From contig NW_027472018.1 of the NCBI RefSeq assembly GCF_965638725.1, positions 434,001 to 498,000 on the forward strand: a stretch of DNA of 64,000 bases, written 5' to 3'. Of this stretch, positions 115 through 43,076 are shown one piece after another. Below the pieces are notes generated by a model. It was not told the origin of the DNA, ran no database searches, and was given only the letters and a program-made list of their open reading frames with translations. The position numbers were made by a program, and so were the translations under genes. Source of the stretch: Aptenodytes patagonicus. Its lineage: Eukaryota > Chordata > Aves > Sphenisciformes > Spheniscidae. How positions within the stretch are numbered: the stretch's first letter is position 1; the number at the start of each line of letters is the position of its first letter.

Positions 115-3100
115 GGTGGTGCTGTCGGTCAATGACAAATGGCATTACTGCCAGAACTCCGACATACTGGTGGGCTCGCGAGCCATGAGGGACAGGCACT
201 TGCGACTGCTGGGCTACTGTCTGGTTCAGGTAAGCGGGGGGCTGCTCCCTTCCCTTCCCCTCCTCCCCCTGGGCAGAAACTGCCCGTGGCTGTGCAGCAA
301 GATGGGCTCCAGGCTGGAGAGCTGGCATCCCCACTGTAAACACTCCCGATGGGAGCTGTCCTTCCACACTTGCTGCTTGTGAGAGGAAGCAGTGACTCAT
401 CCTCACGGCTCCTTTTTGCCCTCCCCCACCCCACCCCAAGACTTCTTCCACACAGCTGGTGGGTGAGACTAGCCCCGGTGCCCTGGCGGAAAGCATGGAC
501 AAGGGGACAGCCCCTCCTGTCCGCTGGTCCTGCAGGAATCCCGTCCTACAGGTCTGCCGCCTGGAGCTGAGACCCGACCCGCGTGCTGGGCAGGGAGGGG
601 AGAAGGGGAAGCTGCTCAGCTTGGACCTGGCAGACACGTTGTCAGTGGCGGTGTCGGCTGCGGGGCCTCAGGGTGGAAATCAAGTGGGGGCATAGCTCAA
701 CCTGATACCCTTTGCTGTAATCCTGGCTGTCGGTTCTGCAGCATGCCTCTTGCCGCTGTGGGCGGAGGTGAGGCGAGCCTCCCTTCAGTGCCTGTTTCGG
801 AGCCCTGGCCTCTTTGGTTGCAGCCTCTGGCTGGTCTGTGGTGAGAGGTGTGAATGGAGAAGCCCTCGAGGCTTCCCACCGCCTTCGCAATTGTCTTCAG
901 TTTTCTTTGGGGACTTCAGATGTTGTTTTAAGGTGTGCAGCTTCTACAAGACTATTTGTGGGGTGATTTTTTAGCTTGAGGATAGATCTTTCTGAGGAAA
1001 ACAACTCAGAAATGCAGGCCTCTTACCCTGTTTACTTCTCCACTTCAGAGGTCACGTGAATTACAGTCATAGATCTACCAAGCAGCCTCATAACCATTTC
1101 TTAAAGCTTCTTACCTCCCCTGCTGCTGATGGTGCAGTGTGCCAACACGAAGCTGCTTCTAACTTCATAATTTGCAACGTACATAGTTCAGAAGCCCTTT
1201 GTTTATGCATAGCTTTGGCAGTCCTGTGACTCGAGTTGTGGTATTTCCTTGGAGATCCCAAATTGCAGAGCAGTGGAGCAGGACCAGCTCTCCTGTGCAG
1301 TGCGCCATGGGTCTCCCTTGTGCTGGCATTCAGGACGGGGTGCCCAGGGCCGGCCGTGTCCCCAGACAGCAGTGGGGCCGAGCAGCTTTGTCACACGGAG
1401 GAGGGCTCGCCAGTACCTGCCACTGGGCTCGAGGCCGGTGCCACAGGCTCTCGCTGTGCGTCTGGGCTCCAGGATGTCCTGGGTCGAGGAGGGCTCTTGG
1501 TACAGCTGCTGCTGCTCCCAGGTTTGTGCCACCATGTCCGAGAGCTGAGGGCTGCCCTTGCCTGCCTGCCCTGTGCCCAACGCACCCATGGCAGCCAGGG
1601 ACTGTGCTCACCCTGCACTTGGCCCAGCTGGGGGGTCCGTGCCCCGTCTCAAACAGTCTCTGGTGACTGTTACTGCTTGGGTCTGCGCCCCTGCTGTGGG
1701 TCAGGGCTGCTGTGGGAGGCTGAGGCTGCTGACCAGCGGCCCAACAGGGTCTCTGAGGAGCAAGGCAGAATGGGCAGGGGTGCAGGCAAGCTAGAGCGTG
1801 CTCTTGCTCCCAGTGTGCACAGGGTCAGGCGCTCTGTCTGGCAGCGTGCGGTTAGGCGTCAGGACCCGCATGACCGAGGCGCAGGAACTCTTCTCTGCTC
1901 AGCATGCCCGATCATCATGCAGCTGCTAGTGCGGTTAGCTCCCTTTGGGTGCATGAGAAGAGGCACTCTGGTCCCATCCCCTCTATTCCCTCTCCAGCAG
2001 CAGACAGTGGCAGATTGTTAGAAAATGAGTCGGAAGTGGATCGTGGATAGTCCAAGGACTCCTGCACCAGAGCATGTGTCTGTACAGCTGTGTTTAATCA
2101 CCCCGATGGACCTCTTCTCCATGAGCGTTTTATTCCTCTGAGCCTGTTCTTTCTTCCACACCTGCAGCGTCCGATGCCAACAAGCTCCAGGCAGTATTAC
2201 CTGCAACAAGCTCTGTTTGTTTTAAACCTGCTGTCTGGTCAGCCGACGTGGTGCTGCCAGGTCTGGTACCGTGAGGGAGTGAAGAGCAGCTCTGCGGTTA
2301 CCTTCTTCTATGCTTGTGGTTCCAGAGGTCGCTTCCCCTTGGCCACCCCTTTGAGATGAAGAACCCCAGGCAGTTCAGCTTCGCTTCACTGCTTGGTTGT
2401 TCTTCTTGCTCTTCTCGTTTGAGGTTTATTTCCTCTTCTTCTGACACCTTTACAGAATCACAGAGTAGTTGAGGTTGGCAGGGGCCTCTGGAGATCATCC
2501 AGTCCAACCCTGGCTCACCTAGAGCAGGTTGCTCAGTACCACGTCCAGTCGAGTTTTGAATGTCTCGGAGATAGGTTGCTTTCTGGGTAACCTGTTCCGG
2601 GCTCAAGGCCAGTGCTGCTTTACCCTCACAGTAGAAGAGGGTTTTTTCTTATGTTTGGGGGTGTGTGTGTAGCTTTTTCTCAAGTTTAAATGGGATTTCC
2701 AATACTTTAGGTTTGTGCCCATTGCCTCACTCTCTGTCACTGGGCACTGCCAAGAGTCTGGCTCTGTTTTCTTTACAACCTCCCGTTGGGTATTTGTACA
2801 TACAGATGAGATGCCCCGATCCTTTTCTTCTCCAGCTCTGTCAACCTCTTCTCACGTATCGCATGCTTTAGTCCCGTAATCATTCTTGTGGCCCTGTACT
2901 GGACCTACTCCAGTATGCCCATGTCTTGTTCTGGGGAGCCCAGCACTGGACACTGCAGATGTGTCTCACCAGTGCTGGGTAGCAGAGAAGGATCGGCTCC
3001 CTCGACCTCCCTGTGGTGCTCTTAGTACAGCCTGGGATGCTGTTGGCCACCTTTGCTGCAAGGGAGCGCTGGTGTTCAACTTGTCCATCAGGACCCTTAG

Positions 3101-29880: not shown

Positions 29881-32282
29881 ATGCAGAAGTACGAGAAGCT
29901 GGAGAAGATTGGGGAAGGTGCGGCCGGGCCGGGGCCGTGCGGGAGGGGCCCGGGCGGGTGCGGGGGACGGGGGCGGTGCCGGCGGGCCGGCCGGTCGGTC
30001 GGTCGGTGCGGCAGTGACCCGGCTGCCCGCAGGCACCTACGGGACCGTGTTCAAGGCCAAGAACCGGGAGACGCACGAGATCGTGGCGCTGAAGCGGGTG
30101 CGGCTGGATGATGACGACGAGGTGAGGCGGGGGGGCCGGAGGCCGGGGGCCCGGGGGCCCGGGGGCCGGGGCCGGACCCCCCCCGAGCCCCCCCCCGAGC
30201 GCGCCCCTCTCTCGGCAGGGCGTGCCCAGCTCGGCGCTGCGGGAGATCTGCCTGCTCAAGGAGCTGAAGCACAAGAACATCGTCAGGCAAGGGGGGGGGG
30301 GGGGCTGCGAGGCCGGGGTGGCAGGGGGCTGCCCCCCCCCTCGGGTGCCCCCGGGGCCGGGGGGGAGCCCCGTCCCCCTCTCCGGGGCTGTATTCGCTCC
30401 GTGGGTTCGGCCGGGCGGTGCGGGGCCTCAGGGTCCCCTTCCCCTCGCAGGCTCCACGACGTCCTGCACAGCGACAAGAAGCTGACCCTGGTCTTCGAGT
30501 TCTGCGACCAGGTGAGCGCCGGGGCAGCGCCAAAACCGGGGCAGCGCCAAAACCGGGGCAGCGCCGAGGCCGGGGTCACTGCTCCCGTCCCCTGCCGCTC
30601 CCTGACGTGGCCCCCGCTGGCTTCTCCCCAGGACCTGAAGAAGTATTTCGACAGCTGCAACGGGGACTTGGATCCGGAGATCGTCAAGGTGCGTTTGGGG
30701 GGGGGGGCTCTGGAAGCCCTTGGGGGACCCGGTGCTCGTCCTGCACTGGCTGCCACAAGAACCGGACCGCGGCGTCGAGGGCCTGATGCGTCCCGCTCGG
30801 GCCTGCGCTCTTTTCCACAGTCGTTCATGTACCAGCTGCTGAAGGGCCTTGCCTTCTGCCACAGCCGCAACGTCCTGCACCGAGACCTCAAACCCCAGAA
30901 CCTGCTCATTAACAGGGTGAGAGCCGGGGAGCGGGCGACGGCCGGGGCTGCGTTGCCGGCCTGAGGCGCCCTGGCTGAGCCGGGCGGGGGGTTACGCCGG
31001 GGAGCAGGCGGCTGTCTGTCCACAGCTTGCGGCTCCGTCTCTCCCTTGTGTTTCTGGTCAATGGGAAAGGGCGAAGGGTCCGGAGCAGCGGCTGCCGCCG
31101 GCCCCGAGGCGTGGGGCGGGCAGCAGGACGGGGCGTCTCCTGCGAAGTCCTGCTGACACGGTGCTTTCACTGCAGAACGGGGAACTCAAACTGGCTGACT
31201 TCGGCCTGGCCCGGGCCTTCGGCATCCCCGTGCGCTGTTACTCGGCGGAGGTGAGCTGGGAGGTCTGCGCTTTCGCTGGAGGCCTTCTGGATGGGAGCTT
31301 GGCTGTCCCGTCCCCCGGCGGGCTGAGCGTCTCCCCCATCCCTCTGCGCAGGTCGTCACACTGTGGTATCGGCCCCCAGACGTGCTCTTTGGCGCCAAGC
31401 TCTACTCCACCTCCATCGACATGTGGTCAGCCGGCTGCATCTTCGCAGGTAGTGCCACCGGGGGCTGCCGGCACAGGGGGCTGCCAGCGCGGGGGCTGCC
31501 AGCGCGGGGGCTGCTGGGGCTGGGGCCATGGGGCTCATTCCCTCTCTTCCCTAGAGCTGGCCAACGCGGGGCGGCCCCTGTTCCCGGGGAACGATGTGGA
31601 TGACCAGCTGAAAAGGATTTTCCGATATCCTTCTGGTGCCGTGCGGGGCCTGCGGCGGGAGGGGGGCTGCCCCCCTCTCCTGGGCAGGGGAGCGGGAGGG
31701 GGCTCTGCCCACGTTAGGTGGGGGTGGGCTGGGTGACGGGTGGCTCCACGCTAGCTGCAGTGGTGGCCCTTGACGGCTGCTGTCCCCACGCTGCTGGGAA
31801 CCCCCACGGAGGAGCAGTGGCCGGCCATGGCCAAGCTGCCGGACTACAAGGTGAGGTGTGGGCGGGCGGGAGGGGGAGGCCGGGGCAGGGGGGCAGCCAG
31901 CCAGGGCTCACCTCTCTGTCCCCAGCCCTACCCCATGTACCCTGCCACCACCTCCCTGGTCAATGTGGTGCCCAAGCTGAACGCGACCGGACGGGACCTG
32001 CTGCAGGTGAGCGCTCTGCCCGTTCCTCCTGCCCGTCCCTCCTGCCTGCACCGTGGGGCTTCTCCGGGAGGGAGAGGAGTTTTGGCTTCTTGGGGCGGGC
32101 GCCCTCTCCCCTTGCAGACCCACGCCTGTCTGGGGGGGCGGGGGGGCCGTGGCTCGCCCTGCCTTGGCCTCACCTCCTATCTCTCCCCTCCCCAGAACCT
32201 GCTGAAGTGCAACCCGGTGCAGCGGATATCGGCAGAGGAGGCTCTCCAGCACCCCTACTTCACAGACTTCTGCCCTCCCTAG
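29881..32282 (+). CDS. CDK5: Cyclin-dependent kinase 5
   Basis: Proline-directed Ser/Thr kinase activated by p35/p39, mainly in neurons. Twelve exons: 29881-29917, 30033-30121, 30219-30286, 30451-30511, 30632-30688, 30821-30916, 31176-31250, 31352-31448, 31555-31624, 31790-31850, 31926-32006, 32196-32282. They sum to 879 nt, 292 residues, the human length and exon count. Visible motifs: glycine loop IGEGTYGTVF with Tyr15, ALKRVRL with the catalytic Lys33, the PSSALRE helix, [33 protein letters not shown] with Ser159, and C-terminus DFCPP. Compared with human I see only a few changes, such as [12 protein letters not shown] for SFLFQLLKGLGF and TDFCPP for SDFCPP. Intron 3 has a GC donor and intron 9 is an AT-AC minor-class intron. 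The gene converges on ASIC3. Confidence 0.98.
30287..30450 (+). other. CDK5: GC-AG intron of CDK5
   Basis: Exon 3 ends GTCAG and the intron begins gcaagg; the acceptor is ctcgcag. Codon phase requires this junction (AG|G gives Arg in NIVRLHDV). AG|GCAAG is the usual context of the rare GC donor class. Confidence 0.85.
31625..31789 (+). other. CDK5: U12-type AT-AC intron of CDK5
   Basis: Donor ATATCCTT directly follows ATTTTCCG; branch-point-like CCCTTGAC has its A at 31773, 16 nt before the terminal AC at 31788-31789. Joining restores [15 protein letters not shown] normal GT-AG pair that keeps the frame is not available, so the minor spliceosome must remove this 165-bp intron. Confidence 0.92.
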
Positions 32283-33008: not shown

Positions 33009-33014
33009 TTTAAT
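33009..33014 (-). terminator. ASIC3: ASIC3 polyadenylation signal variant ATTAAA
   Basis: TTTAAT on the plus strand reads ATTAAA for ASIC3, about 300 bp past its stop codon. Confidence 0.55.
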
Positions 33015-33311: not shown

Positions 33312-36300
33312 TCAGCAGGCGAACTCCTCGAAGGCGCCTAGAGCCGGGTGACGAGGTAGCACGTTCGGGGCGAAGCTGAGACTGTCCGCGTGGCAGCGCA
33401 GGGGGTGACGGGCACTCTGGGGACAGCGGGGGGGGGGGGCGTTTGGGGGCAGCCGGAGACTCTGGGTGGCTGCTCCCCATGCCCCGGCTGCGCTGCAGCC
33501 GCCGTCCTTGCCCCCCTGCGCCTGGCCATGCTGGGGGGCTGTGCCCGCACCCCTCGGTCTGCCCCAGCTTTGCCCCGGGAGCCCCCCCAGCGCCGGGGGG
33601 GGGGGGTGCCCAGCACGCACCTGCTGCAGAGCAAGGCTGTGGCTGTCCCCCTTGTCCCCAAGCAGTGAGCCTCCCCTGGGACTGGGGCTCTCTCCTGCCC
33701 CACAGCGTCCTGGGGGGAGAGGTTGGGGAGGGCCCTGGCCAGTGTGGCCAAGGGGGTGTCGGGGGGCCCTGGGCAGGGGGGACCCGGGGGATGCAGTGCC
33801 AAGGAGAGATGTATGAGGATGGGAGCGGAGCCGGCGGGGGGGCAGCCTCCACGCGCCAGCTCCAGGGATGATGCCAAGAAAAGCCTGGGATGGAGGGAGG
33901 GGGATGCGGAGCCCCGGGGCCTGCCTGCAGGGGAACGGGGGGGGGGGTCACAGCCCCGCTGCGGGGCCACAGCTCCCCGGCAGGGCACGTGGCCGTGTTC
34001 TCCTCACCCCTCACTGTGCCCCCGGCCAGGGACCCCCTTGACCCCCATGGAGGGAGGCAGCCCCGTGGTCCCCCATGCTGGCATTGCCAGGGTGGGGGGT
34101 CTGTGGGTGCTGCCCCCCCCGTCCCCCAGGATCTCTACCTGGGCCCTGGAGGGAGCGGGACAGCGGGACTGCCCGGGACCGCTGGATGCTCCTGGCAGGC
34201 GGCGGGGGCGCAGGACAGACGGACGGACGGACAGAGAGGAGCGAATGAGCGCGCGGGGTCCAAGCGGGAGACGGTGCCGGTCCCGGGGCGGGATGAGGCC
34301 GAGCAGCAGATGGGTGGGATGAGGTGCAAGGTCCCCCCCTTGCCGGCTGTGCCAGGGGAGGGGGGACGGGGCGGGCTGGGTCGCAGCCCGGGGGGGTTGG
34401 GGGGTGCTGAGGGGGGTGCAGCCCCCAGCGGGGCAGGGCTGGGTGGGCTGAGCCGGAGGGGGGCTGTGGGGGGGGTTACCAGGGTGCTGCTGTCGCTCCT
34501 GGGGGTCCTCTTCTTCTCCTTGTAGAAACTGAGGAGTTTGTCCCGGAATACCTGGGGGAGTTGGGTCAGAGCCCCACCGTCGGCCCGAGCACCCCCTGGC
34601 TGTGGGGCAGCATGGGGGGTGGGGGTGGGGGTGGGGCAGGCTGGTGCTCACCTCATACAGGTAGTCAAAGATCTCCAGGATGGTGAGGAGGCTGGCACCA
34701 ATGAAGAGCCCCATCTGCCCCCCGATGTCGCCTGGGCAGAAGGGTGGCATTAGAGGGGGCTGCCCCCCTGGACCCCCCCAATCCCCTCGGGCACTCACCC
34801 AGCAGCCCCGCCACCTCGTACGCCTTCTTCTGCTCGATCATCTCGTAGTTCAGGGCCTCAAAGAAGATGTCCAGGACCAGCACGTTGTCCCTGGGGAGGG
34901 GACAGACATGTCTGGGACGGACAGATGAGCCGCCAGGCAGCATCCCCAGCCTCGGGGGGGGGGCCGGGGGGGGGCTGTTCCGTGCCACGGTGTGCTGATG
35001 GGATGGGACGGGACGGAGGGGTCTGCCCTGTGCTGGGGTGGCACAAGGATGTACTGTGCCGTGCCATGCCACACTGTGCCATGCCATACTGTGCCATGCT
35101 GTGCCATACTGTGCCATGCTGCGTGGTTTTTCCCTGTGCTGGGGCAGATTTGCACAGAGGAGTCAGTGCCGTGCCGTCCCGTGCTGTGCCAGTTCACGTA
35201 TGCTGGAGGATGCCGTGTGTCTGTGCCATGCCAAGTCACACCGTCACACTGTGCCATGCCATGCGCTGGTGGGGCCATGGGTCAGCGCGGTGGTGGCACT
35301 CACGCGATGTACTGCTCCGTCTTGTTGAACTTCTTGGCCAGGTACCTGGCGGAGGCCTTGCTGGGGATCTTCACCATGGAGAGCTCTTTGCCGTAGCGCA
35401 CCATGGCACAGGGCGTACGGCAGGCACAGTACTCGCTGTCCTTCTTCACCAGGAAGTCTGGGAGGGGTGTGGGTGAGATGGGGACCACAGGGATGGCGTG
35501 GCTGTGACCCCCGCCCGCGCTGGGGATCGGGCTGCTCTGAGGATGGAGCCCGGGACCCAGCCAGAGCCTGGGCGGTGGCAGGTGCCGACGGCACGGGATG
35601 AGCGTGCCACGATCGCTGCTGGCAGCACATGACGGGGGGGGGGGGAAGCCCAGACCTGCATGTCTGCGGTCTGAGCAGGCAGGGACAGCAGTGACACCCA
35701 TCCCCCTGCCCTGTGAGGGCATGGGGACACCGGCACCACGTTCACAGTGATGGAGCCTGGGGGGGGGGGGGGGTGGGCAAGGGGTCCTGGGGGCATCTGG
35801 GTTGTCCGGGGATGGTGGCCCCTGGGGTGAGACCCTGGGCTGGGCTGGGGATACCAGAGGTGGCAGCAGGGGGGGGGTTGCCCCCGGTACATACCCAGTG
35901 CAGGGTCAGCACACTCCTTGTACTGCTCCGGGGTGCAGACGTTGGCATTGCCTGTGGGGCAGCGGAGGCAGCAGTCGCAGGGGCAGGAGGGTCTTCCCAC
36001 CGCCCCAGCCCCACAGCAGCTGCCCCCCCATGTCCCCCTCTCACCTGGCATGTGCACCATGCGGCAGTTGCAGTTCTCGGCCAGGTAGCGGGTCTCGCAG
36101 TCCAGGCGGCAGGCGGTGATGCTGTAGTTGGTGAAGAAGTCGGACTCGATGGGGGTGGCCTTGCAGTCCCCCCAGGGTGGGGGCAGGTACACCAGCTGCC
36201 GGCCGCAGGCTAAGGAAAACACGGCGTCCCCAGCATCCCCAGCCCACCGTGGTGCCCTGTCCCTCAGGCAGAGCTCGTCCCATGCAGCTGGTGCTGCGGG

Positions 36301-39058
36301 GGTCATGCCACCCTGGAGACCCCCGCTCCCACCCCTGCCCCTCCTCACCGGGCATGAGGACGGGCGTTGGGGCCGGCATCACCCACAGCCGGTGCAGCAG
36401 TGGGAGGGAATGGGCCAGGCAAGGACCAGCATGCAGCACCAGCCCAGAGCACACGGAAGCCAGACGGAGGGGGGGGGGGTCAGCACGGACCCCCACGCTT
36501 CCTGCAGTGGGCAGCACCCAGATGGGCAGTGTGAGGTCGTGCCATGGCCAGTGCGGGGAGTGTGCTTGGCGAGGGAGCAGTGCGGCCCGGCCAGGCACCC
36601 ATGGGTGCTGAGGGCCACGCTCCCGCTGCCACTGCGCTCCCTGCCACCCGCGCCGCGAGTGCCAGCGCACATGGAGACACCCACTCAAGACACCTAAATT
36701 TAGGTGTCTGGCTGTGCAAGCTGGATGCCGCCCCTGCCGACGGTCTGTTCGGCAGGAGGCTGGGGGGGTCGCTGCCGGGAGCCAGTGCCTGCGGTGGGAC
36801 CGAGTGGTCCTGGCGTGGGGCTGCCCCACACCATGCCGCGGTGCTCCCGGCCATCGCGGTGGCAGAGCTGCTGTACCGATGGTGCGGTACCTGCTGTGTT
36901 GCACAGCTCGACACGGGACCTCCCTGTGGGGACAGCTGCGGCTGTGCCGGGACTGCCCGAGCCCCGGGTGGGGTGGGGGTGGGGGGGGCTGCACCCCTGC
37001 AGACCCTTCCACGCACTGCTCGGGCATTGTGGCTGGATACCCGCTGCTGCTGGCAGGACACGAAGGTCTGGAAGCCGGGTGCCACACCAAAACCCAGCTG
37101 GTCGATGAAGGGGGGCTCCTCCTGGCTGTGGATCTGCACCTTCACCCCTGCCTCGTAGGAGGTCTCGTCTGCAAGGCAGGGAGGGCGTCGGGGGCGCGGG
37201 GCAGCAGCCGTGCCATGAGCAGGGCTGTGGGGGGGCCCTCACCCGTGTCCCCCCAGACGGGCAGGTATTCCTCCTGCTGGACATTGAGCATCAGCTCCAG
37301 GCCATTCCCCGCGCCGCCCTGCAGCGTGGTCAGCACCTCCCGGCCTGGCCCCCCCGAGTTGAAGGTGTAGCACTTGCCGAGGCGGGTGAAGATCTGTGGG
37401 GACAGGGCAGGACCCTCAGCGCCCGCCATGGGGCCGCCCGCCGGATGGCGGCATTTGGGGGACTGGGGGATGGGAGCTGAGCCCCTGCCTGCCCTGCACC
37501 CACTGAGCAGGGCTGGGGGGGCAGCATCTGGGGACCCTGCACAGCCCCAGTGAAGGATCCCAGTGTCCCACAGGACCCCGTGCAGGATCCCAGCAGCCTC
37601 AGTGCAGGATCCCAGCGCCCCATCAGCCCATGCACAAGGGAAGGGGCTGGTGCATCCATCCCTTTCCCTTTGGGACCAGTGTGGGGCTGCGGATGGGGCC
37701 ATGGGGTGGCTGCTGCTGTCCCTGCCCCAGCGTGGTGTCCTTGGTTCTGCCAGGTCCCAACAGCCCAGGCGTCCCAATAGCCCTGCGGGACCCCTGCCCT
37801 GTGTCCTGCCCCGTGTCCTGCCCCGCCGGGCCTCAACGGCAGAGGGTTGGTCCCTCCCCAGCCCTGGCCAGGCAGGACACGGGATCCCAACCCCTGGGAA
37901 GGCACCCACAGCCTCCCCTGCCCGGGGCTGACCCACCTCTTCCTGCAGCCCCCCAGCACGGAGAAGGCCCCCACCAGCCTCTGCGGCTGCTTTGCAGTGA
38001 GCACAGACCTGCAGCTGCAGCCCCACAGCCCCATGTCCCTCCCATGACTCCCCATCTCCACCACGCTTCCCCGCAGCCCCACGTCTCCCCACGGCCCCAT
38101 GGGTGCAGGGTGGGCAAGAGGAGCCATCCCGGGGCAGTGCGGTGGGAGCTTTGCCAAGCGCCTTGGGGCTTGGGGACAGTGGAGTGGGCAGGCGCCGTGC
38201 CCCCACCCCGCCATCACTCCACAGCCTGTGTACCCCATCGCCCCACAGCCTGCACAGACCCCATGGCCCCAAAGACTGTGCACCCCATGGCCCCACAGCC
38301 AGCACCCCGCCATTGCCCCACAGCCTGCACAGAGCCCATCACCCCACAGCCTGTGCACCCCATGGCCCCAAAACCTGCTCAGCCCTGGGGGTCCTGCCCA
38401 AGCCCTGCCCAGGGCAGAGCTAGCCGGGGATGGGGCTGCTGTGGGTCCTGCCCGGGGCAGAGCCAGCCGTGGCCATGGCTGTGGCTGTGGCAGTGGCCAT
38501 GGCGGCGGCACTGGCACTCACGGCAGTGACGTTCTCGGGGCCGCAGTCCCAGCTGCGGAAGCGACAGTGCAGCAGCATCTTGTGGATGGGGTGCCCAGCG
38601 CGCTGGTAGAAGGCGCCCAGGTCGTAGCTCTTGCTGAGGAAGAAGCCGGCGAGGTTGGGGGGCTGCCCCAGCGCCCGCAGGTAGCGGGGGAAGTCCTCCC
38701 TCCCCACCCCCAGCAGCTCCCTGCCCAGCCAGAACAGATCGTTGGGGGTGAGCTGGGAGCGCTGGATGCGGTTGCAGTTGCAGAGGGTGATGGTGGGGAA
38801 GACGAGGACACGGCTCTCCGCCTCGTCCAGCACGGTGACATGGGGGTACGCGGCGTAGTGCCGGACCCGCTCCCCCGCCTGCAGCAGGAAGGCGCCCAGC
38901 GAGGCCAGGAAGGCACCGGCCCAGAGCAGGCGGCACGGCGCCGGCGCCCCGGGCACAAAGATGTGCCCCAGCCCGTGCAGCATGCAGGAGCGGGCGAAGG
39001 CCGCCAGGTCGGCCGCCCCCCGTGCCCCCACGCCTGGCCCCGGCAGCTCGGCAGCCAT
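33312..39058 (-). CDS. ASIC3: Acid-sensing ion channel 3 (first exon 1b form)
   Basis: Proton-gated Na+ channel subunit of the DEG/ENaC family. Exons: 38522-39058, 37243-37393, 37041-37168, 36045-36195, 35895-35951, 35304-35457, 34799-34890, 34652-34731, 34480-34551, 33312-33416; 1527 nt, 508 residues (human 531), all phases consistent. Motifs: LHGLGHIF (re-entrant His-Gly), first membrane helix, [95 protein letters not shown], and the selectivity filter FIGAS in the second helix. Start ATG 39056-39058 is chosen for homology and context (gccATGg). The last exon, read in phase, ends GAFEEFAC as in ASIC1/2/4, not in the mammalian ASIC3 VTxL tail. Exon 36045-36195 uses the ggcag acceptor that gives QQQR|LVYLPPP. 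Confidence 0.95.
35052..35123. repeat. (GTGCCATGCCATACT)n array in ASIC3 intron
   Basis: Tandem GTGCC/ATGCC/ATACT pentamers; scattered further copies extend to about 35270. The motif recurs in SLC4A2 and ATG9B introns. Confidence 0.8.
38215..38390. repeat. Minisatellite in ASIC3 intron (CAGCCTGTGCACCCCATGGCCC)
   Basis: About eight imperfect copies of a roughly 22-bp unit between exon 1b and exon 2 of ASIC3. Confidence 0.75.
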
Positions 39059-42521: not shown

Positions 42522-43076
42522 CACGGTGAAGTTGCGGGCGGTGCAGTTTGCGCCGCGGAAGGAGCACTGCAGCAGCATGTCAGCCAGGTCGTGGCCGGTG
42601 CGGTTGTAGAACTCGGCCATGCTGAAGGGCTTCGCCTTGAAGTTCTTGAAGTTGGCCTTGTCACGCAGGGCGGCCAGGACGTGGGGCTCAGCCAGCTGCG
42701 GGTTGCTGATCTCGTAGCGGTCGTTGAGCAGCGCCAGCAGCTCGCCCACGTGGTACATGTCGTTGCGGGTGATCTTGGAGAATCGGAACTCGTTGAGGTT
42801 GCAGATGGTGATGGCCGGGAAGGTGAGGTTGTGGGCAGCCACCTCGTCCAGCTTGGTGACGTGGGGGTAGGTGAGGAAGTAGGCGATGCGCTCGGCGCAG
42901 ACCAGCAGCAGCAGCCCCAGTGAGCCCAGGAAGAAGGCGCCCCACAGCACGCGGCGCAGCGACACGGCCCCGTAGGCGAAGACGTGGCTGATGCCGTGCA
43001 GCGAGGAGCTGTGGGCGAAAGCCCGCAGGCTGGAGAGCCCCTCGCCCTCCCCGCTGCCCTCCGAGCTCGCCCTCAT
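42522..43076 (-). CDS. ASIC3: ASIC3 alternative first exon 1a (ASIC1/2-like)
   Basis: 185 codons from ATG 43074-43076 to a strong donor (GTG|gtgagt), ending ARNFTV in phase 0, the same phase as exon 1b. The next suitable exon on this strand is ASIC3 exon 2 (37243-37393, [11 protein letters not shown]). Shows LHGISHVF, first membrane helix [66 protein letters not shown] and [19 protein letters not shown]. These resemble ASIC1/ASIC2 exon 1 more than mammalian ASIC3. Spliced to exon 2 it gives 514 residues. ASIC1 and ASIC2 are known to use two alternative first exons; mammalian ASIC3 is not known to. A decayed separate gene is less likely because the frame and donor are intact. Confidence 0.85.

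Follow-up and report, generated by a model that had tools for sequence, protein, structure and literature searches.

The last coding exon of ASIC3 in Aptenodytes patagonicus is probably a two-frame (overprinted) terminal exon, in which inclusion or skipping of a 3n+2 cassette exon, most likely the one at 33709-33621, picks a tail that ends in EFAC or a tail that ends in VTRL, an arrangement that was probably already present in the ancestor of birds and mammals. The gene runs from 43076 down to 33312 on the minus strand of the window, which is the whole 64,000-nucleotide stretch analyzed and corresponds to positions 434001-498000 of contig C57 in the organism's own genome (1.35 Gb, 618 contigs). 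ASIC3 senses pain and acid, and its tail governs both surface level and current by way of PDZ partners and stomatin, as described in passages of PMC8555555 and PMC3562204. All positions given below are those of the window.

Locus and gene identity

The gene is ASIC3, an ASC-domain channel located beside CDK5. The directly spliced form matches the Pfam family PF00858 (ASC, DEG/ENaC) over residues 21-447 with an E value of 4.7e-107. The assignment follows from the CDK5 neighbourhood together with the finding of ASIC1, ASIC2 and ASIC4 at distinct loci of the same genome, on contigs C27, C20 and C6, respectively. The locus on C27 is named ASIC1 for its near identity to chicken ASIC1 (33/34 residues of the last exon and 50/50 of exon 2), the locus on C20 is called ASIC2 from its EIAC ending and the locus on C6 is presumably ASIC4, judged by its tail. 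The following neighbours are found in the window:

115-229, plus strand, RAP peptide, Pfam match
13909-13774, minus strand, Band_3_cyto peptide, Pfam match
29881-32279, plus strand, CDK5, homology match lying tail to tail with ASIC3
47267-47182, minus strand, ABC_membrane peptide, Pfam score 22.0, below the cut-off of 28

The Band_3_cyto, RAP and ABC_membrane peptides are taken to represent SLC4A2, FASTK and ABCB8, and the bird neighbourhood agrees with the human gene order, which is assumed to be ABCB8-ASIC3-CDK5-SLC4A2-FASTK. All five mammalian ASIC genes are reported for chicken and zebra finch in a passage of PMC6679542, which also calls the Ensembl ASIC3 model of the zebra finch very partial.

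Two reading frames of the last exon

The coding exons downstream of the first one, with the signals at the 3' end of the gene, are as follows:

37393-37243, 37168-37041, 36195-36045, 35951-35895, 35457-35304, 34890-34799 and 34731-34652, minus strand, exons 2-8
34480..34551, minus strand, exon 9 (penultimate in the direct form), with a phase 0 end at ...STL and donor gtaacc
33312..33416, minus strand, last coding exon, 105 nt, with acceptor ctgtccccag just before it
33338..33415, minus strand, frame B reading, the +1 frame of the same exon
33312..33337, minus strand, frame-A-only segment beyond the frame-B stop, which becomes 3'UTR when frame B is read
33009..33014, minus strand, polyadenylation-like hexamer ATTAAA downstream of the last exon

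When exon 9 is spliced straight to the last exon, the latter is read in phase 0 (frame A) and the tail ends in GAFEEFAC followed by the TGA at 33314-33312. The +1 frame (frame B) has 25 open codons and ends in TCYLVTRL followed by the TAG at 33340-33338, and the third frame runs through the exon without a stop. A preliminary description of this DNA had placed the frame-B stop at 33338 and had stated that splicing 34480-34551 to 33312-33416 gives a tail like those of ASIC1, ASIC2 and ASIC4; both points hold. The exon therefore has two open frames with stops of their own (33338 and 33312), each specifying a plausible C-terminus. The type I PDZ ligand VTRL is encoded by frame B only and would be reached through a candidate cassette exon.

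Candidate exons that switch the frame

Reading frame B requires a +1 shift relative to direct splicing, which a cassette exon of length 3n+2 supplies. The 1063-nt last intron was searched for exons of 15-300 nt that score more than 3 bits at both ends with splice matrices. The search yields 20 candidates, six of which are 3n+2 in length and open into frame B. Two of these are considered in what follows:

33621..33709, minus strand, best candidate cassette exon, 89 nt (3n+2), acceptor 10.7 and donor 9.2 bits, opening into ...VTRL and stop
34139..34191, minus strand, weaker candidate cassette exon, 53 nt (3n+2), acceptor 5.4 and donor 5.0 bits, opening into ...VTRL and stop

The exon at 33709-33621 is the strongest of the six 3n+2 candidates and is level with the top of all 20. 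Splice pairs spaced 40-150 nt apart were also collected from the whole window at thresholds of 10, 9 and 19.5, which gives five pairs on the minus strand (33709-33621 counted) and four on the plus strand, or 0.08 and 0.07 per 1063 nt. A looser cut gives 23 pairs on both strands, among which five are established exons (exons 2 and 7 of ASIC3 and three exons of CDK5) and three more hold the band-3, RAP and ABC-like peptides. Judged by splice-signal strength, 33709-33621 is thus a good candidate exon, though not a certain one. Its codon log-odds of -0.43, set against an intron mean of -0.63 with a standard deviation of 0.34, are not clearly exon-like; for comparison, exon 9 scores 0.92 and the last exon -0.18. 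Similarity to the human exon-10 peptide is weak for both candidates (P 0.024 for the 89-nt exon and 0.20 for the 53-nt exon).

The presence of a strong 3n+2 candidate in the last intron bears out the earlier proposal that an alternative splice could still make the mammalian-type tail in a bird. That proposal had named either a shifted junction or an extra exon as the route; an extra cassette exon would suffice, and a new junction at the last exon would be unneeded.

Other ways into frame B were also considered. Within exon 9 or the 200 nt beyond it there is no alternative donor that gives frame B. In the 500 nt before the last exon, nine alternative acceptors keep frame B open, with a strong score at 33709 only. 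A slip of two bases at the AG|AG of the last acceptor gives the third frame instead, as does inclusion of the 89-nt and 53-nt exons together. The 53-nt exon at 34191-34139 was entertained as the counterpart of human exon 10, which presumably ends in GPR as this exon does, and was demoted on account of its weak and common sites and the far greater strength of the 89-nt exon; pairs as strong as its own occur about 3.4 times per 1063 nt, which is not significant. The 204 nt between the 89-nt candidate and the last exon (33620-33417, minus strand) are a multiple of three in length and contain no frame-B stops, and their retention from the acceptor at 33709 would likewise end in VTRL.

It is accordingly conceivable, though rather unlikely, that both tails are made and that frame B is reached by one of these other routes, namely the 53-nt exon, some other exon of length 3n+2 or use of the acceptor at 33709 with 33620-33417 retained. 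All of these forms open into frame B, and the ...GPR ending of the 53-nt exon resembles that of human exon 10. Against this stand the weakness of the 53-nt sites, at a density that would place several such pairs in an intron of this length, and the long proline- and arginine-rich stretch that the retention form adds to the protein. The 89-nt exon at 33709-33621 is preferred as the candidate switch.

Frame B and the mammalian ASIC3 tail

Human ASIC3 ends in TCYLVTQL as printed in PMC8555555, the same peptide is listed as a human mass-spectrometry peptide in part of PMC9576141 and a passage of PMC3562204 gives the published ASIC3 terminus as VTRL, a type I PDZ ligand. Frame B shares 7/8 of the last residues with the human TCYLVTQL and is identical at 16/23 positions to a 23-residue stretch of the human tail. 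The earlier wording 'almost identical' is therefore slightly strong.

When frame A is recoded synonymously according to the gene's own codon usage, none of 200,000 recodings reaches 16/23, and the computed probability of TCYLVTRL and its stop given frame A is 6e-9. As a control, the last exon of ASIC1 read in +1 matches the same tail at 6/23 positions (5/8 of the last residues) and has an internal stop. This presumably unused +1 frame of ASIC1 (on C27) contains TSYLITQP, which amounts to a latent ASIC3-like tail, and the rare codons CTA CCT are common to the last exons of ASIC3 and ASIC1. With these two codons held fixed, 106 of 150,000 recodings reach 16/23, and in none of the 106 is the frame also open with its stop at the right position. 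When codons are instead retained at rates of 0.30, 0.45, 0.60 and 0.75, the numbers that reach 16/23 are 97, 496, 1,797 and 5,755 per 40,000, with 20, 229, 1,018 and 4,232 of these having the open frame and the stop in place. The synonymous test weakens as ancestral codons persist, so that the frame-B result is a strong one only where synonymous turnover has taken place since birds and mammals diverged.

Codon composition was examined as a further sign of constraint. Codons that end in A or T make up 8/27 in the overlap against 47/659 elsewhere in the gene (Fisher P 0.0007), and the eight observed compare with 2.7 expected from the same residues (P 0.003). The GC3 of the last exon dips relative to the rest in ASIC3 (26/34 versus 267/295, P 0.02); it dips as well in ASIC1 (23/34 versus 274/337, P 0.07), moves in the opposite direction in ASIC2 (26/33 versus 170/289, P 0.04) and shows no change in ASIC4 (34/39 versus 281/330), where the paralogue counts derive from tblastn matches that include intron read-through in one ASIC1 match and one ASIC4 exon counted twice. 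The GC3 dip is weakened as an ASIC3-specific sign by the dip in the ASIC1 last exon. Taken on the sequence of this single genome, and dependent on the ancestral persistence that is assumed, both frames look selected.

A different account is that this bird uses frame A alone, that frame B survives from an alternative tail of the ancestor or just shadows the conserved frame A, and that the intron holds no real exon; it is unlikely, and somewhat more so than another route into frame B. It gains from the fact that direct splicing works without any extra exon, from the TSYLITQP in ASIC1, which already matches 5/8 of the last residues in a frame that is presumably unused, and from the codon log-odds of the candidate exons, which are not clearly exon-like. 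It has to accommodate a frame B that stays open for 25 codons and stops at the mammalian position, a likeness of 16/23 that synonymous recoding reaches in 0/200,000 trials (97 and 496 per 40,000 at 30% and 45% retention), and the strong 3n+2 candidate in the last intron. The reading in which both frames are used remains the preferred one.

Pattern scans for relatives matched eight stretches of viral contigs and 24 stretches of genome contigs, with no relatives in either set. A PDB sequence search with the frame-B tail, built with the 53-nt exon, gives one chance match only, with an E value of 7.6.

Frame A and the family tail

The last exons of ASIC1, ASIC2 (...LGTLEEIAC) and ASIC4 (...QGVFEDFAC) from the same genome can be aligned with frame A, and each of them starts right after a splice acceptor. 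The ASIC1 last exon is also 105 nt in length and has the same phase, the preceding exon ending in ...DDVKRH. In comparison with chicken ASIC1, 15/29 residues of frame A are identical (E 1.3e-5). The codon-aligned 27 nt beyond the frame-B stop (33338-33312, encoding GAFEEFAC and the stop) match ASIC1 of the same genome at 22/27 positions, for which the binomial P is 5e-8 at a neutral identity of 0.30 and 1e-4 at 0.45. Because this segment would be 3'UTR if frame B were read, yet matches the paralogue with its ending and stop intact, selection on frame A is suggested. When frame B is recoded synonymously, the likeness of frame A to a 12-residue stretch of ASIC1 is reached in 17/200,000 recodings by BLOSUM score and in 447/200,000 by identity. 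That only frame B is used, with frame A a leftover of the ancestral tail, is quite improbable: frame B is the known mammalian state and the direct junction of exon 9 with the last exon could go unused, but the exon 9 donor and the last acceptor yield frame A directly, and the would-be 3'UTR retains its likeness to ASIC1 together with an intact GAFEEFAC and stop.

Proposed mechanism and PDZ partners

Under the preferred reading, in which the cassette selects the frame, skipping the cassette would keep phase 0 and give an ASIC1/2/4-type tail ending in EFAC, an end near to the DFTC of ASIC1 and the EIAC of ASIC2 that resembles a type II (PICK1-type) PDZ ligand. Inclusion of the 3n+2 cassette would shift the frame by +1 and give the mammalian-type tail ending in VTRL, a type I PDZ ligand, with partners of the PSD-95, Lin-7b, NHERF and CIPP type and a stomatin site as well. 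The splice choice would thereby change the type of PDZ ligand and, presumably in the bird too, the trafficking partners of the channel while leaving the pore untouched. A serine ahead of [HP]RTCYLVT is present in the bird frame B. This serine is probably S523, the PKC site of PMC3562204.

The partner assignments derive from mammalian channels. According to passages of PMC8555555 and PMC3562204, the VTRL end is the site of PSD-95, Lin-7b, NHERF and CIPP, and stomatin binding needs TCYLVTQL. PICK1 is described as binding ASIC1 and ASIC2 and not ASIC3 (PMC8555555), and the DFTC and EIAC ends of ASIC1 and ASIC2 are described as closer to type II motifs (PMC3562204). The division of partners is unclean in mammals, where PSD-95 binds ASIC2a also and Lin-7b modestly raises the ASIC1a current, as stated in parts of the same two articles (PMC8555555, PMC3562204). 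The contrast drawn in the preliminary description between an ancestral tail and a PDZ-ligand tail has to be given up, since ASIC1 DFTC and ASIC2 EIAC are PDZ ligands too (PMC3562204), so that the switch would alter the type of ligand.

Origin of the mammalian tail

Frame A is the older of the two because it is common to ASIC1, ASIC2 and ASIC4. Frame B most likely predates the split between birds and mammals because it is common to this bird and to mammals. Mammals appear to have lost frame A; under the proposed scheme they would have fixed frame B while frame A decayed. The exon is homologous to the last exon of ASIC1/2/4 and the mammalian ending is its +1 frame, which suggests, as far as sequence comparison goes, that the mammalian ASIC3 ending most naturally came about through a frame change in an exon that already existed. 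This part of the earlier proposal, that the mammalian C-terminus arose by a change of reading frame in an existing exon, stands on the exon homology (acceptor, 105 nt and phase) and the +1 frame match; frame B is not confined to mammals, being present in the bird and probably predating the split.

The change needed may have been little. Because ASIC1 carries a latent TSYLITQ, a small step would be enough: read in +1, the motif N[IV]LP[HR]HPA can give YL[IV]T as it stands, and adding a leucine codon and a TAG completes the type I ligand. A fuller scenario, which is given an even chance of being right, holds that the PDZ ligand of the family was replaced by overprinting. The +1 frame of N[IV]LP[HR]HPA would have been latent in the ancestral exon, as it still is in the TSYLITQ of ASIC1, and would have become a type I ligand on gaining the leucine and the stop; both tails would have been splice forms in early amniotes, with birds keeping both on one exon and mammals only the new frame.

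Relation to known systems

Two-frame terminal exons that choose PDZ endings are already known from SYNGAP1 and, in related form, from ITGA6. Exon 21 of SYNGAP1 (alpha1/alpha2), as described in part of PMC9064290, is likewise a two-frame terminal exon chosen by splicing, in which one isoform only has a PDZ-binding end. Both SYNGAP1 frames are used in one species, the mouse (PMC9064290), whereas the second frame of the bird ASIC3 exon corresponds to the tail that the orthologue has in another vertebrate class, and both ends look like PDZ ligands of different types. In the A/B tails of ITGA6, removal of 130 nt shifts the frame and swaps the PDZ-binding endings of a membrane protein, as in the scheme proposed for ASIC3, although the removed stretch of ITGA6 carries the first stop, whereas ASIC3 has both stops in the last exon (passages of PMC5930856). 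Penultimate-exon skipping with a frameshift that reads past the usual stop into the 3'UTR is described as common (Preussner et al. 2020, PMC7392665, in part). The new tails of that study are UTR-encoded and proline-enriched, whereas the skipped form of ASIC3 gives an old tail conserved in the family. Human ASIC3 itself has C-terminal splice variants a, b and c, and the passages of PMC7801124, PMC9612379 and PMC8484650 that mention them do not state which exon or frame each uses. Among the matches listed in the open-licence literature, none is by its title or the start of its abstract an account of an ASIC3 frame switch, and passages of PMC5798305 and PMC6790391 contain nothing on the bird ASIC3 tail. 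What appears to be new is that two frames of one exon are the tails used by different members or lineages of one family.

If the proposal is true, one frame switch in a shared exon would explain the difference in tail between ASIC3 and the PICK1-binding ASIC1 and ASIC2, and birds would provide a natural setting where the same channel can bear either tail and the function of the switch can be tested. Antibody, transcript and annotation work that assumes a single ASIC3 C-terminus in birds could overlook a form.

Alternative first exons

The 5' end of the gene also offers a choice, with two first coding exons:

42522..43076, minus strand, first coding exon 1a (alternative), 62% identity to chicken ASIC1
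38522..39058, minus strand, first coding exon 1b, 39% identity to chicken ASIC1

Exon 1b is taken to resemble the first exon of mammalian ASIC3. Exon models joined in phase give 508 and 514 residues for the directly spliced channels and 517 and 523 residues for those that include the 53-nt exon. All four isoform models are open; the inclusion models were built with the 53-nt exon, and the 89-nt form was checked separately. The donors of exons 1a and 1b are both in phase with exon 2, and two first exons combined with two tails would permit four isoforms, one of them an entirely ASIC1-like channel made from the ASIC3 gene.
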